A DNA stretch of 64,000 bases, from contig JAJYWF010000001.1 of NCBI GenBank assembly GCA_021791635.1, positions 1 through 64,000 of the forward strand, in the 5' to 3' direction. Each line of letters opens with the position of its first letter. Position 1 is the stretch's first letter. This stretch comes from Actinomycetes bacterium. Its GTDB lineage: Bacteria > Actinomycetota > Acidimicrobiia > Acidimicrobiales > RAAP-2. The translations under genes were made by a program, and so were the position numbers. Below, one piece after another: positions 879 through 4,973 of the stretch. The notes under the pieces are model-generated. The model had not been told where the DNA came from, made no database searches, and saw only the letters and a list, made by a program, of their open reading frames with translations.

Positions 879-2321
879 TCAGCTCGCTTCGTCCGCCGGC
901 CCCCAGGCCGCTCCCCGTCTCCGTGGCACCACGATGCCACCTTCGTCCACCATGGCCGCCGTTCCCACCGCTTCGGCACCGAACCGTTCACGGATGGAGT
1001 CCACCGCCGCCGAGATCTCCCGCCGGTCCTCCTGGAGCGAACCGACGCGTTCCCACACCGCCCCGACGTCCACGGGACCGGGCCCGGCCGTGTCCCCGCC
1101 GGCACTGCCCGCACCGCCCCCACCGCCACCACCGCCCGGATCTCCGTCAGCGCCGCGGGAGGTCGGCAGGACACCGATGAACTGGAGCTGCTCACCCGCC
1201 CGACGATCCCTGAGACCGCCGGCAGCGACGCCCAGAAGTCGAACACCGGCGCCGATGTCGACCGACTCGAGGAGCGCGACGGCGACGCTCGCCAGCGAGT
1301 GCGCCGTGTCGATGCCTCCGCCGAGCGTGTGGCTACGGGTGACCACGGCCAGGTCTGGGCTTTTCACCTTCACCGTGACCGTCCGGGCCCGCACCGACGA
1401 GGCTCGGAGCTGGATCGCCACGGACTCGGCCATTCGCACTGCGTGACGTTCGAGGGTGCTGCGATCGGTGACGTCGGAGGGGAACGTCTCCTCGTGCCCG
1501 ATGGACTTGGCCTGACGCCCGGGGACCACGGGGTCACGGTCGATGCCATGCGCCAGTTCCGACAGCCGTCGGCCCGGCGAGGAACCCAGTTGGTGGACGA
1601 GGGCGGAGCTCGGCACGTCAGCCAGATCGCCGACGGTGGTGAGGCCCAGGGCGTGCAGCCTCGCCGCCGTGGCCGGGCCTACCCCCCACAGGGCCTCGAC
1701 CGGTAACGGACGCAGGAACGCCGCCTCCTCATCCGGCCCGACCGTGACCACACCGGCTCCAGGCTCCTTTCCCCGAATGGACGCCCGGGGTTTGGCCGCT
1801 CGCGAAGCCAGCTTGGCGATGAGCTTGGTCCGCCCGATCCCCACCGAGCAGTCCAGTCGAAGGCTCTCGATCACTTGACGACGTATCTCCCCGGCCATCA
1901 GCTCGGGCCTGCCGAGGAGATTCTGGGCACCCGTCACGTCCAAGAACGCCTCGTCCAGACCGATCGGCTCCACCAGAGGGGTCACCGAGGCGAAGATCTC
2001 GTGGAGCCGGCCGCTCACTTCGGCATACCGGGAGTACCGGCCGTCGACGAAGATCGCTTCGGGGCACAGCCTCTTGGCCTGGAGCGAGGGCATGGCCGAC
2101 CTGACCCCGTACGCCCGCGCCTCGTACGTGCACGAGGCCACCACCCCGCGTGCGCCACTTCCCCCGACGATGACCGCACGTCCGGAGAGCTTCGGGTCGT
2201 CGAGCACCTCGACCGAGGCGAAGAACGCATCCATGTCCACGTGGAGCACGACCCTTGTCCACGGCGCCTCTCCCGATATCGCCGCTGTCCTGGCGCCACA
2301 ACCACGCACGGCCACGCTCAC
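879..2321 (-). CDS. dinB: DNA polymerase IV (Y-family translesion polymerase)
   Basis: 480 residues from a GTG start. It is a Y-family polymerase that copies past damaged bases. The catalytic acidic residues are visible: D29 in HVDMDAFFASVE and D123/E124 in GLDEAFLDVT. The helix-hairpin-helix stretch LWGVGPATAARL and the little-finger domain follow. EQLQFIG after the little finger resembles a beta-clamp binding peptide. A run of nine glycines then links to an about 60-residue C-terminal segment. The SIDEA of E. coli is GLDEA here, within known family variation. It is last in the leftward LysM-nrdR-PIG-L-dinB run that starts at the LexA-box promoter, so SOS control is likely but inferred. Confidence 0.93.
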   Translation of the reverse strand: MSVAVRGCGARTAAISGEAPWTRVVLHVDMDAFFASVEVLDDPKLSGRAVIVGGSGARGVVASCTYEARAYGVRSAMPSLQAKRLCPEAIFVDGRYSRYAEVSGRLHEIFASVTPLVEPIGLDEAFLDVTGAQNLLGRPELMAGEIRRQVIESLRLDCSVGIGRTKLIAKLASRAAKPRASIRGKEPGAGVVTVGPDEEAAFLRPLPVEALWGVGPATAARLHALGLTTVGDLADVPSSALVHQLGSSPGRRLSELAHGIDRDPVVPGRQAKSIGHEETFPSDVTDRSTLERHAVRMAESVAIQLRASSVRARTVTVKVKSPDLAVVTRSHTLGGGIDTAHSLASVAVALLESVDIGAGVRLLGVAAGGLRDRRAGEQLQFIGVLPTSRGADGDPGGGGGGGGAGSAGGDTAGPGPVDVGAVWERVGSLQEDRREISAAVDSIRERFGAEAVGTAAMVDEGGIVVPRRRGAAWGPADEAS

Positions 2322-2382: not shown

Positions 2383-3105
2383 TCACACCGTAAGCCCTTC
2401 GAGGTGGAGGCACCGAAACCCTTCGGCGAACTCGACTCCGGCCCGGCGCCCCTCTTCCGCCGCCCGGCGCCTCACGGCTGCCGCGGCCCACGAGCCGTCG
2501 CTCCCGACGAACTGGCTCCGGTGACAAGTCACGGAGGCCACCTTGGCCTCGACCCAGGCCGTGATGTCGACCCAGATGTCGGGCTCCAAGGTCCCAGACA
2601 GCAAAGCCGTCACCACTTGGTGAGGGGGCCCGGCGCCGGGGAAGTAGTGCGGGAGGGCCGAGGCCGGGGCCAGCGCGTCCAGCGTCGCCCAACCGGCCGT
2701 CCGGTGATCCCGGTGGTTGAAGTACTCCCGCCCGAAGAACACTGCCGTGGGATCGTGCCCGACCACGACGTCGGGCCTGAGGGCTCGCACCCACCTGACC
2801 AGCTCTTCGCGTAGCCCCACCCGCTCCTCCAGCTCCCCGTCTGGCGCCCCCAACACCCGCCAGGACGCCAAACCGACGACCTCAGCCGCCTCGGCCAGCT
2901 CTCGAGAGCGCCGGACACTCAGCTCCTCGGTCGTGATCGACCCATCGAGGCTCCCCTTCCCCCCATCGGTGCAGACGACGAGATGCACCTCGGCCCCGCC
3001 TGCGGCCCAACGAGCCAACGCGCCCCCACACGCCACGTCGGCGTCATCGGGATGTGCGTAGATCGCCAGCACCACCGCGGGCTCGACTTCGAAGAGCTCA
3101 GCCAC
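2383..3105 (-). CDS. PIG-L / LmbE family zinc-dependent N-deacetylase
   Basis: 240 residues. The N-terminal zinc motif AHPDDADVACGG (residues 17-28) and the later HRDHR supply the His and Asp ligands and base typical of the PIG-L/LmbE fold, which removes N-acetyl groups from GlcNAc-type sugars. Actinobacterial members include MshB (mycothiol synthesis) and Mca (mycothiol S-conjugate amidase). This one is shorter than MshB and its exact substrate cannot be read from sequence. It lies 22 bases after nrdR and 61 bases before dinB on the same strand, so it is probably co-transcribed from the SOS-controlled promoter at 4.2 kb. A role in detoxification linked to DNA damage is inference only. Confidence 0.85.
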   Translation of the reverse strand: MAELFEVEPAVVLAIYAHPDDADVACGGALARWAAGGAEVHLVVCTDGGKGSLDGSITTEELSVRRSRELAEAAEVVGLASWRVLGAPDGELEERVGLREELVRWVRALRPDVVVGHDPTAVFFGREYFNHRDHRTAGWATLDALAPASALPHYFPGAGPPHQVVTALLSGTLEPDIWVDITAWVEAKVASVTCHRSQFVGSDGSWAAAAVRRRAAEEGRRAGVEFAEGFRCLHLEGLTV

Positions 3106-3127: not shown

Positions 3128-3598
3128 TCAGGACCGTCGCTTCGGCGCCGTGGTCTTGGTCAAGAGCCCGACCTCGCGGGCGAAGTCACCCAGGTCCTCG
3201 AAGCCCTTGTACACGCTGGCGAAACGCACGTAGGCGACATGATCCAGGGCCTTCAAGTGCTCCAGGACCGCCAGCCCCACCTGCTCGGTCGTAGGTTCGT
3301 CACCCTTCACCCTCACGTCTTCTTCGACCGCCTGGGCGACACGGTCCATGTCCTCCACCGTCACCGGTCGGTTCTTGCAGGCTGCCCGGACCCCTTCGAC
3401 CACCTTCAATCGCTCGAACGGCTCGCGCCCACCCGAGCGCTTCACGACCCACAGGATCTGCTCTTCGATCCGCTCGAAGGTCGTGAACCTCCGCCCGCAG
3501 CTCAGGCACTCCCGCCGCCTCCGGATCGCCACGCCCTCCTCGGACACCCGCGAGTCCACGACCCGGTCATCGTCGGTCGAGCACCACGGGCAGCGCAT
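3128..3598 (-). CDS. nrdR: Transcriptional repressor NrdR (zinc-ribbon/ATP-cone)
   Basis: 156 residues, the usual length. The N-terminal zinc ribbon has C3-x2-C6 (CPWC) and C31-x2-C34 (CLSC). An ATP-cone domain follows (about 49-139; KRSGGREPFERLKV), the nucleotide sensor by which NrdR represses ribonucleotide reductase genes. It lies 21 bases after the LysM protein gene. The arrangement lexA / LysM protein / nrdR matches my memory of mycobacteria (lexA, Rv2719c, nrdR), which supports both calls. No ribonucleotide reductase gene is in the window, so its targets are elsewhere. Confidence 0.96.
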   Translation of the reverse strand: MRCPWCSTDDDRVVDSRVSEEGVAIRRRRECLSCGRRFTTFERIEEQILWVVKRSGGREPFERLKVVEGVRAACKNRPVTVEDMDRVAQAVEEDVRVKGDEPTTEQVGLAVLEHLKALDHVAYVRFASVYKGFEDLGDFAREVGLLTKTTAPKRRS

Positions 3599-3619: not shown

Positions 3620-4153
3620 TCAGGGCACGCGAATCCTCTCCCCCGGGACGACAACCTGCGACCCCAGCCGTTGCGAAAGGGCCGCCACCAGCTCCTGAGG
3701 GTCGCCCCCCTGGTCGAACTGCCGGGCGATGGTCCACAGGGTGTCACCGGGCTGGACCACATAGACGAATCCACCGATCGGTGCACCGGCCACGGTCCCG
3801 TGCGTGACCGCCGGACGCCCGGCCAGGGCACTGACCGGCAGCGCCAGGAGCACCGTCACCCCGACGACCACGCCCCAAGCCGCCAACCTGCTCCAGCGCA
3901 CCCGGGGACGGCGCCGGTCCACCCGACGACCTCGGGGAGCCCCGGGGGCCCCACTCTGAGGGCCGACACCCGCCCCCCTGGCCTCCAGAGCGATTGTCGC
4001 CACTCCACATTCGGGGACCACCTGCAACCATGGCCGCGGACACGCATGGACGTCCGAAACGGCCGGGAACATCTCGACTACGGCCACCTCGGGCCTCCCC
4101 ATCGGCCCCCAGCGGAGGCCACCCCGCCCGGGAGGTACCCGAGGGCCGGCCAC
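3620..4153 (-). CDS. LysM-domain membrane protein, SOS cell-division inhibitor type (YneA / Rv2719c-like)
   Basis: 177 residues from a GTG start. A basic, proline/arginine-rich cytosolic arm (1-87) is followed by one membrane segment (about 88-111) and an extracytoplasmic LysM domain (about 130-176; YVVQPGDTLWTIARQF), which binds peptidoglycan. Proteins of this layout beside lexA (YneA in Bacillus, DivS in Corynebacterium, Rv2719c in mycobacteria) delay division during DNA damage. Function here is inferred from layout and position. It diverges from lexA and leads the nrdR-PIG-L-dinB run. The 5' end is uncertain: the GTG at 4153 lies about 25 bases from the predicted transcription start, with only a weak ribosome site. 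Confidence 0.8.
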   Translation of the reverse strand: MAGPRVPPGRGGLRWGPMGRPEVAVVEMFPAVSDVHACPRPWLQVVPECGVATIALEARGAGVGPQSGAPGAPRGRRVDRRRPRVRWSRLAAWGVVVGVTVLLALPVSALAGRPAVTHGTVAGAPIGGFVYVVQPGDTLWTIARQFDQGGDPQELVAALSQRLGSQVVVPGERIRVP

Positions 4154-4159
4154 GAGTGG

Positions 4160-4171
4160 GAACGTCTGTTC
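4160..4171. promoter_or_regulatory. Weaker LexA-box-like palindrome
   Basis: GAAC-N4-GTTC (spacer GTCT), a core match to the actinobacterial/Gram-positive LexA box (CGAAC-N4-GTTCG) without the flanking C and G. It lies just downstream of the predicted start of the leftward LysM transcript and could be a third, weaker LexA site. Confidence 0.5.
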
Positions 4172-4182
4172 TCCATGAGTTC

Positions 4183-4211
4183 ATTTCAACACGAACAGAT
4201 GTTCGTGTCAA
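4183..4211 (-). promoter_or_regulatory. Sigma-70-type promoter for the LysM-nrdR-PIG-L-dinB run
   Basis: On the minus strand TTGACA (4211-4206) is followed by a 17-base spacer and TGAAAT (4188-4183). The perfect LexA palindrome fills the spacer, so bound LexA would occlude RNA polymerase. The predicted transcription start is about 4176, some 23 bases before the GTG of the LysM protein. Confidence 0.7.
4189..4208. promoter_or_regulatory. LexA operator (perfect SOS box)
   Basis: ACACGAAC-AGAT-GTTCGTGT is a perfect 20-bp palindrome with a 4-base centre. Its core is the CGAAC-N4-GTTCG consensus of actinobacterial and Bacillus LexA boxes. It lies between the divergent lexA and LysM genes, in the spacer of the leftward promoter. 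Confidence 0.9.
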
Positions 4212-4219
4212 GCACTTCT

Positions 4220-4235
4220 TCGAACAGATGTTTGC
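4220..4235. promoter_or_regulatory. Second LexA operator overlapping the lexA promoter
   Basis: TCGAAC-AGAT-GTTTGC has a consensus left half-site and one mismatch in the right half (GTTTG for GTTCG). It shares the same AGAT centre as the perfect box 31 bases away and overlaps the -35 element of the rightward lexA promoter, as expected for LexA autorepression. Confidence 0.82.
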
Positions 4236-4260
4236 AATTCTTCAAGAACGTGTGTACGAT
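4232..4260 (+). promoter_or_regulatory. Sigma-70-type promoter for lexA
   Basis: TTGCAA (4232-4237), a 17-base spacer and TACGAT (4255-4260) form a good housekeeping promoter reading toward lexA. The -35 overlaps the second LexA box. The predicted start near 4267 leaves a leader of about 77 bases before the lexA ATG. Confidence 0.7.
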
Positions 4261-4343: not shown

Positions 4344-4973
4344 ATGGCCGAGGCTCTGACCGGGAAGAGAGAGCAGATCCTGGACTTCATCGGGAAGTGC
4401 ATCCGAGAGCGCGGGTACCCTCCTTCGGTCCGGGAGATCGGTGATGCCGTCGGCCTAGCGTCCTCCTCCACCGTCCACACCCACTTGGCAGTGCTGCAGC
4501 GTGAAGGCTTTCTCCAACGGGATCCCACCAAGCCGCGGGCGATCAAGGTGCGCTACGACCCTTCGTCGAAGGTCGCCATGGCCGCCGGCCCGGTCCGGCA
4601 CGTGCCGCTCGTGGGTGAAGTCGCCGCCGGGACCGGCGTCCTGGCCCAGGAGAACGTCGAAGAGGTCCTCGCCCTTCCTGAGCAGTTCACCGGCACCGGA
4701 TCCACCTTCATGCTCCGGGTCCGAGGTGACTCGATGATCGATGCGGGCATCTTCGATGGCGACTTCGTGGTGGTCCGCCAGCAGCCCGAAGCCGATCCCG
4801 GCGACATCGTCGTCGCCGGGATTCCCGACGGCGAGGCCACCGTGAAGTTCTACGACCGCCGGGACGGCTGCGTCGTGCTCACGCCGGCGAACCCGGACAT
4901 GACGCCGATGTCGTTCGACCCGACGGACGTCGTGATCTTCGGCCGGGTGGTCACCGTGCTCCGCCGGCTCTGA
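4344..4973 (+). CDS. lexA: LexA repressor, SOS regulon
   Basis: 209 residues. The N-terminal winged helix (about 1-70; YPPSVREIGDAVGLASSSTV) binds SOS boxes. The C-terminal S24 peptidase domain carries the self-cleavage site A95-G96 (VAAGTGV), nucleophile S130 (RGDSM) and general base K168 (ATVKFY), all intact. A GAGGAGGGCGAG ribosome site precedes the ATG. LexA represses its own gene and DNA-damage genes until RecA-ssDNA filaments trigger autocleavage. Two strong boxes and a weaker one upstream indicate autoregulation and control of the divergent LysM-nrdR-PIG-L-dinB run. No recA is in the window. Confidence 0.97.
   Translation: MAEALTGKREQILDFIGKCIRERGYPPSVREIGDAVGLASSSTVHTHLAVLQREGFLQRDPTKPRAIKVRYDPSSKVAMAAGPVRHVPLVGEVAAGTGVLAQENVEEVLALPEQFTGTGSTFMLRVRGDSMIDAGIFDGDFVVVRQQPEADPGDIVVAGIPDGEATVKFYDRRDGCVVLTPANPDMTPMSFDPTDVVIFGRVVTVLRRL

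Follow-up and report, generated by a model that had tools for sequence, protein, structure and literature searches.

In Mycobacterium tuberculosis, PMC8151990 describes four SOS boxes in the lexA/Rv2719c (chiZ) region, one for lexA and three for the Rv2719c operon, with a PafBC motif also present on the operon side (in one sentence of that paper the names appear in the form Rv2019c), and PMC4181829 reports LexA control of Rv2719c-nrdR-Rv2717c. ChiZ inhibits cell division, as does YneA, to which DivS is reported to be unrelated in sequence (PMC3989709, PMC13396833). Here we analyse a comparable locus in a 64-kb stretch of DNA, hereafter the window, of an uncultured Acidimicrobiia-type actinobacterium. 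It is taken from a genome of 2.46 Mb in 155 contigs, whose closest named relatives are metagenome assemblies of Acidimicrobiia/Acidimicrobiaceae. We compare it with about 90 related lexA/LysM loci from Acidimicrobiia, whose genomes are mostly draft assemblies. We assign a probability of roughly 0.9 to the reading that it holds a LexA-controlled divergent region serving both lexA and a ChiZ/YneA-type SOS division-inhibitor operon (LysM-nrdR-PIG-L-dinB).

Four LexA-type boxes between divergent genes

The gap between lexA and LysM contains four LexA-type boxes within 98 bp (A, B, C and D', Table 1), all of which match, by their palindromic sequence, the Actinomycetota-type LexA operator CGAAC-N4-GTTCG, from which the E. 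coli LexA motif differs. The initial annotation had recognised three of these, and its coordinates for A, B and C hold, but the fourth, D', had been overlooked. The palindrome extending box B was correctly located at 4189-4208 (ACACGAACAGATGTTCGTGT), with complementary arms of 9 bp, but is not perfect as had been claimed: it matches at 18/20 positions, the central two bases (GA) not being self-complementary. Box C can likewise be written in a wider form, at 4220-4235 (TCGAACAGATGTTTGC).

The pattern GAACNNNNGTTC occurs three times in the window against 0.8 expected, which by itself is weak evidence. In 60 simulated 64-kb sequences (first-order Markov model, sites with at most one mismatch), the largest cluster comprised two sites in 100 bp, compared to the four observed here. 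The cluster also recurs between lexA and a divergent LysM gene in most of the related loci, 41 of the 90 possessing all four boxes and 71 a box C ending in GTTTG. The A-B pair is present in 66/90 loci, at a spacing of 23-36 bp (most commonly 33 bp). Box A, the third and weaker GAAC-N4-GTTC of the initial annotation, is weak in sequence while conserved in position. Some loci (L059, L060, L065, L077, L082, L087, L206 and L208) have LexA boxes arranged head to tail 5' of lexA at a spacing of about 15 bp, up to three in a row.

Table 1 Features of the lexA/LysM region (coordinates within the window)
Feature	Position	Strand	Details
dinB (DNA polymerase IV)	879..2321	-	start uncertain; gap after PIG-L about 61 bp
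PIG-L family deacetylase	2383..3105	-	22 bp after nrdR
nrdR	3128..3598	-	TIGR00244; 21 bp after LysM
LysM gene, ChiZ/YneA-like	3620..4087	-	one hydrophobic segment then LysM; 155 aa
LexA box A	4160..4171		GAACGTCTGTTC; exact core, weak flanks; just 3' of expected LysM start site
-10 of LysM promoter (putative)	4183..4188	-	TGAAAT; extended -10 TG = CA at 4190-4191 on + strand
LexA box B	4193..4204		GAACAGATGTTC; exact match; between -35 and -10 of LysM promoter
-35 of LysM promoter (putative)	4206..4211	-	TTGACA
LexA box C	4222..4233		GAACAGATGTTT; one mismatch; overlaps lexA -35
-35 of lexA promoter (putative)	4232..4237	+	TTGCAA
LexA box D'	4246..4257		GAACGTGTGTAC; one mismatch; overlaps lexA -10
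-10 of lexA promoter (putative)	4255..4260	+	TACGAT, 17 bp past -35
lexA	4344..4973	+	TIGR00498, 219 bits vs cut-off 111

On the leftward side, the locus has the make-up of a ChiZ-type operon, with a LysM protein of one N-terminal membrane segment encoded divergently from lexA and followed by nrdR. The open frame of the LysM gene as listed begins at 4153, and its start is probably the GTG at 4087, which stands behind GGGGAGG; a leaderless start at the ATG at 4178-4176 was rejected, since neither in the window nor in most relatives is this ATG in frame with the gene. The same protein layout, one hydrophobic segment before the LysM domain, is found in 61/64 orthologs, and a profile built from them recovers the LysM genes that adjoin lexA in Bacillus and in mycobacterium-like genomes, with E-values that are only indicative given the small set searched. 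Formal membership of the YneA family (NCBIfam NF010723) was rejected at 24.5 bits against a cut-off of 60, the layout nevertheless being similar. The order LysM-nrdR-PIG-L-dinB is kept in most same-family relatives; of 13 relatives examined, 12 have it, including one in which the genes are spaced further apart. In the window, dinB may therefore come under SOS control through the LysM promoter.

LexA-type boxes overlapping predicted promoters

A sigma-70 consensus promoter and terminator scan of the window recovered neither of the two promoters; such a strict scan is uninformative for them, and the readings given here rest on conservation rather than on a consensus score. For the rightward promoter, we asked how often TAnnnT occurs exactly 17 bp beyond TTGnnn, a linkage that is independent of how box C is defined. 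In Acidimicrobiia, this is the case for 57/62 GAACNNNNGTTT boxes and for 2/171 GTTC boxes (Fisher 9e-46), and in a second set, of other Actinomycetota genomes, for 20/24 against 2/28 (1.6e-8), although kinship among the compared loci inflates such counts and the p-values overstate independence. This GTTTG box, followed by TAnnnT at 17 bp, is also seen in the Mycobacterium-like genomes sampled, and the GTTTG box tracks lexA across the sampled phylum. The overlap of box C, in its wider form, with the rightward -35, and the position of the -10 beyond it, were thus correctly read at the outset, and the 17-bp linkage indicates that box C ends in GTTT rather than GTTC because the T is a base of the -35. 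By the same conservation, the overlap of operator and -35 at lexA is old and widespread. The lexA leader shows no RNA structure beyond that of shuffled sequences (z = +1.1).

In the leftward promoter, box B does fill the spacer between the two elements, as originally described, entering the -35 by three bases, and TTGAC adjoins box B in 68/83 loci. At 17 or 18 bp from TTGAC, the first and last T of the -10 are conserved, as is the TG one base upstream, with the A at the second position usually absent. So while the TTGACA of the initial annotation stands, its -10 is non-canonical, lacking the usual A and preceded by an extended -10 TG. The absence of an A that most promoters need is a point against the dual-promoter model, as are the failure of both promoters in the sigma-70 scan, the loss of canonical box D from the window, the low YneA score of the LysM protein and the kinship among the loci counted. 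The complement of this TG, CA, flanks 50/64 B boxes on the left, compared to 5/61 A, 6/70 C and 5/50 D boxes. This specificity, together with the adjoining TTGAC, indicates that outside the LexA core the palindrome consists of promoter sequence, its outer edges being readable as the extended -10 to the one side and as the -35 to the other.

Which operators belong to which promoter can be read from a natural experiment, the loci in which lexA and LysM have become separated. Six relatives, belonging to three genera, have other genes inserted between lexA and LysM-nrdR, and each of them keeps two boxes at LysM (three in two of the loci) and two at lexA; a comparable split occurs in a seventh genome (L066). 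One and the same AAA-ATPase insert, with a similar partner gene, is present in genera g10 and g18, whose separations may represent one event, whereas the inserts in g6 are different. That the cluster divides cleanly with the genes is direct evidence that A and B serve LysM, and C and D serve lexA. In split or expanded arrays, the extra box that takes the place of C beside LysM reads GTTC, as would be expected where the -35 constraint is gone.

The box nearest lexA takes two forms. In most relatives (51 loci), C is followed at a distance of 39-49 bp by a box D, which lies immediately beyond the -10. The window has no canonical box D, but instead D' at +24 from C, reaching into the lexA -10. A box at exactly +24 is found in six other loci, in every case with GTACG over a TACGNT -10, and all seven loci with D', the window included, are without D. 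The simplest reading is that D and D' are two exclusive designs. The fuller proposal, that these are exclusive second-operator designs at lexA and that the lineage of the window lost D and gained D' independently of the other D' clade, we regard as evenly balanced between true and false; the independent origin is suggested by the fact that, within its family, the window alone has D'. As a separate observation, the left half of box D reads AAAC rather than GAAC in 23 of the 51 loci (e.g. L018, L021, L024), mirroring the weak right half of box C, and we found no promoter reason for this.

Motifs elsewhere in the genome and among relatives

The LexA regulon was read from pattern searches of the source genome, with reversed motifs as control. 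The strict motif CGAACRNNYGTTYG has 6 forward matches in the 2.46 Mb, compared to none for the reversed control, and two of the six are boxes B and C. Counting both strands, the remaining matches fall 5' of recA, at the ruvC start, close to a dCTP deaminase gene, within a coding region, and 5' of a reading frame that is followed by an ImuB-like gene and then by a second dnaE, which is partial and dnaE2-like. We take the names ImuA' and ImuB from gene order and from recognising the sequence; a Pfam search of the pieces of these proteins that were tested gave no match. The same motif is thus found at other SOS genes, and the genes at strict matches form a textbook SOS set, mainly recA, ruvC and imuA'-imuB-dnaE2.

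We also searched for the PafBC-type promoter motif, TGTCRS-N10-TAnnnT. It has no match upstream of LysM in the window, and the window's genome shows no excess of it (2 matches, against 2 in the control). Among the 90 related loci, TGTCAC-N10-nAnnnT is directed toward LysM in 29, usually 5-8 nt before the ATG (L051, L058, L063, L064 and L079-L081 are among the loci with such a motif), with none toward lexA and none for the reversed motif; in the window's own family it is nearly absent (3/35 loci). In the form TGTCACACC-N7-TAnnnT, which was also followed genome-wide in G038, G054 and G058, the motif usually stands 6-7 nt before an ATG, and the promoter would therefore probably be leaderless. We had considered TGTCACACC near LysM starts in relatives as an NrdR-type site, but the geometry fits the published PafBC motif TGTCAC-N10-TAnnnT instead. 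The long form, TGTCACACC-N8-A-N3-T, occurs 38 times in one genome (G054) and 32 times in another (G038), with 0 control matches, and the genes behind the motif include recA (G058), a RadA-like ATPase (G041), sbcD, rmuC and PD-(D/E)XK nucleases, among others. Going by this pattern, the LysM operon of the families that bear the motif may be under dual LexA/PafBC control, as in M. tuberculosis. One open frame of about 703 codons (G000:C25:15047-16255) contains two WYL domains, as in naturally fused PafBC.

Proposed control of the locus

What is observed here comprises the sites and how they are conserved, the geometry of the promoters, which sites go with which gene, and the genomic LexA motif set. 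From these we infer a circuit that would place LexA dimers on two operators per promoter, A and B for LysM, and C and D' for lexA. Within the LysM promoter, box B would separate the -35 from the extended -10, with box A just past the start site, while C would cover the -35 of lexA and D' its -10, so that bound LexA would keep RNA polymerase off both promoters. Upon DNA damage, RecA-stimulated self-cleavage of LexA would free the two promoters, yielding more LexA (negative autoregulation) along with the division-inhibitor and repair operon, possibly with read-through as far as dinB. The non-consensus bases in C (GTTT) and D' (GTAC) would meet the needs of the -35 and -10, tying operator strength to promoter strength. 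If the proposal of two exclusive second-operator designs at lexA is true, a direct trade-off between operator and promoter sequence at C and D' would determine the set point of LexA autoregulation, since both carry a base needed by the promoter in place of the operator consensus.

Dual SOS control of two divergent promoters, as first proposed, draws its support from conservation over about 90 loci, from the split loci, from the genomic motif set and from the M. tuberculosis region. One could argue that only the autoregulation of lexA is real, with B, C and D' serving to repress lexA and the LysM promoter being an uninvolved neighbour, either weak or constitutive, as the non-canonical leftward -10 might suggest. 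We consider this very improbable: A and B remain at LysM where inserted genes lie between it and lexA, the TTGAC and TG to which B is fused are conserved, and of the four boxes in M. tuberculosis three belong to the Rv2719c operon (PMC8151990). Even less credible is that the sites are used by a repressor other than LexA, such as an ArsR-type regulator with a similar motif. For mycobacteria it has been suggested that an ArsR motif overlaps the SOS box (PMC8151990), but the strict matches in the genome are few and fall mainly at classical SOS genes, and it is lexA that the GTTTG box follows across the phylum.

A narrower doubt concerns D', which could be a chance match within a set of otherwise genuine LexA sites, given its one mismatch, its weak score and flanks, the TAC imposed on it by the -10, and its absence from every other locus of the window's family. 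The recurrence of a box at exactly +24 in six further loci, with the same GTACG, and the lack of D in all seven make this an unlikely explanation, although not one of the outlying ones, and we retain D' as an operator in the dual-control model.

Relation to described systems

Our comparison sets the window beside the LexA-controlled region of M. tuberculosis. Both have a LysM gene, for a division inhibitor in M. tuberculosis and for a candidate one in the window, that points away from lexA and has nrdR behind it; four SOS boxes are clustered in between, and both sides are, or in the window would be, controlled by LexA. They differ in that the window has two boxes per promoter, where the M. tuberculosis region has one and three (PMC8151990); in the fusion of D' to the lexA -10; in the lack of a PafBC motif before LysM; and in the length of the operon, which in the window runs on to PIG-L and dinB compared to Rv2719c-nrdR-Rv2717c. 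The arrangement is thus, on the evidence of sequence conservation, well supported as a real and old one, of which a version was already known in the tuberculosis bacterium. A circuit known largely from work on mycobacteria would thereby reach into an actinobacterial class that is mostly uncultured, and the predictions go down to single bases. The interlock of lexA operator and -35 at 17-bp spacing, found in much of the sampled phylum, could serve as a simple marker of LexA autoregulation in unannotated genomes.

An SOS-induced division inhibitor beside lexA is likewise found in C. glutamicum (divS) and B. subtilis (yneA), and YneA, like the window protein, combines one transmembrane segment with a LysM domain (PMC3989709, PMC13396833); it is by analogy with ChiZ and YneA that the LysM protein of the window would inhibit division. 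The promoter region of E. coli uvrB has four LexA sites (PMC6015884), so that several LexA sites lie over one regulatory region, as here, but it belongs to a different gene and, unlike the gene pair of the window, is not divergent from lexA.
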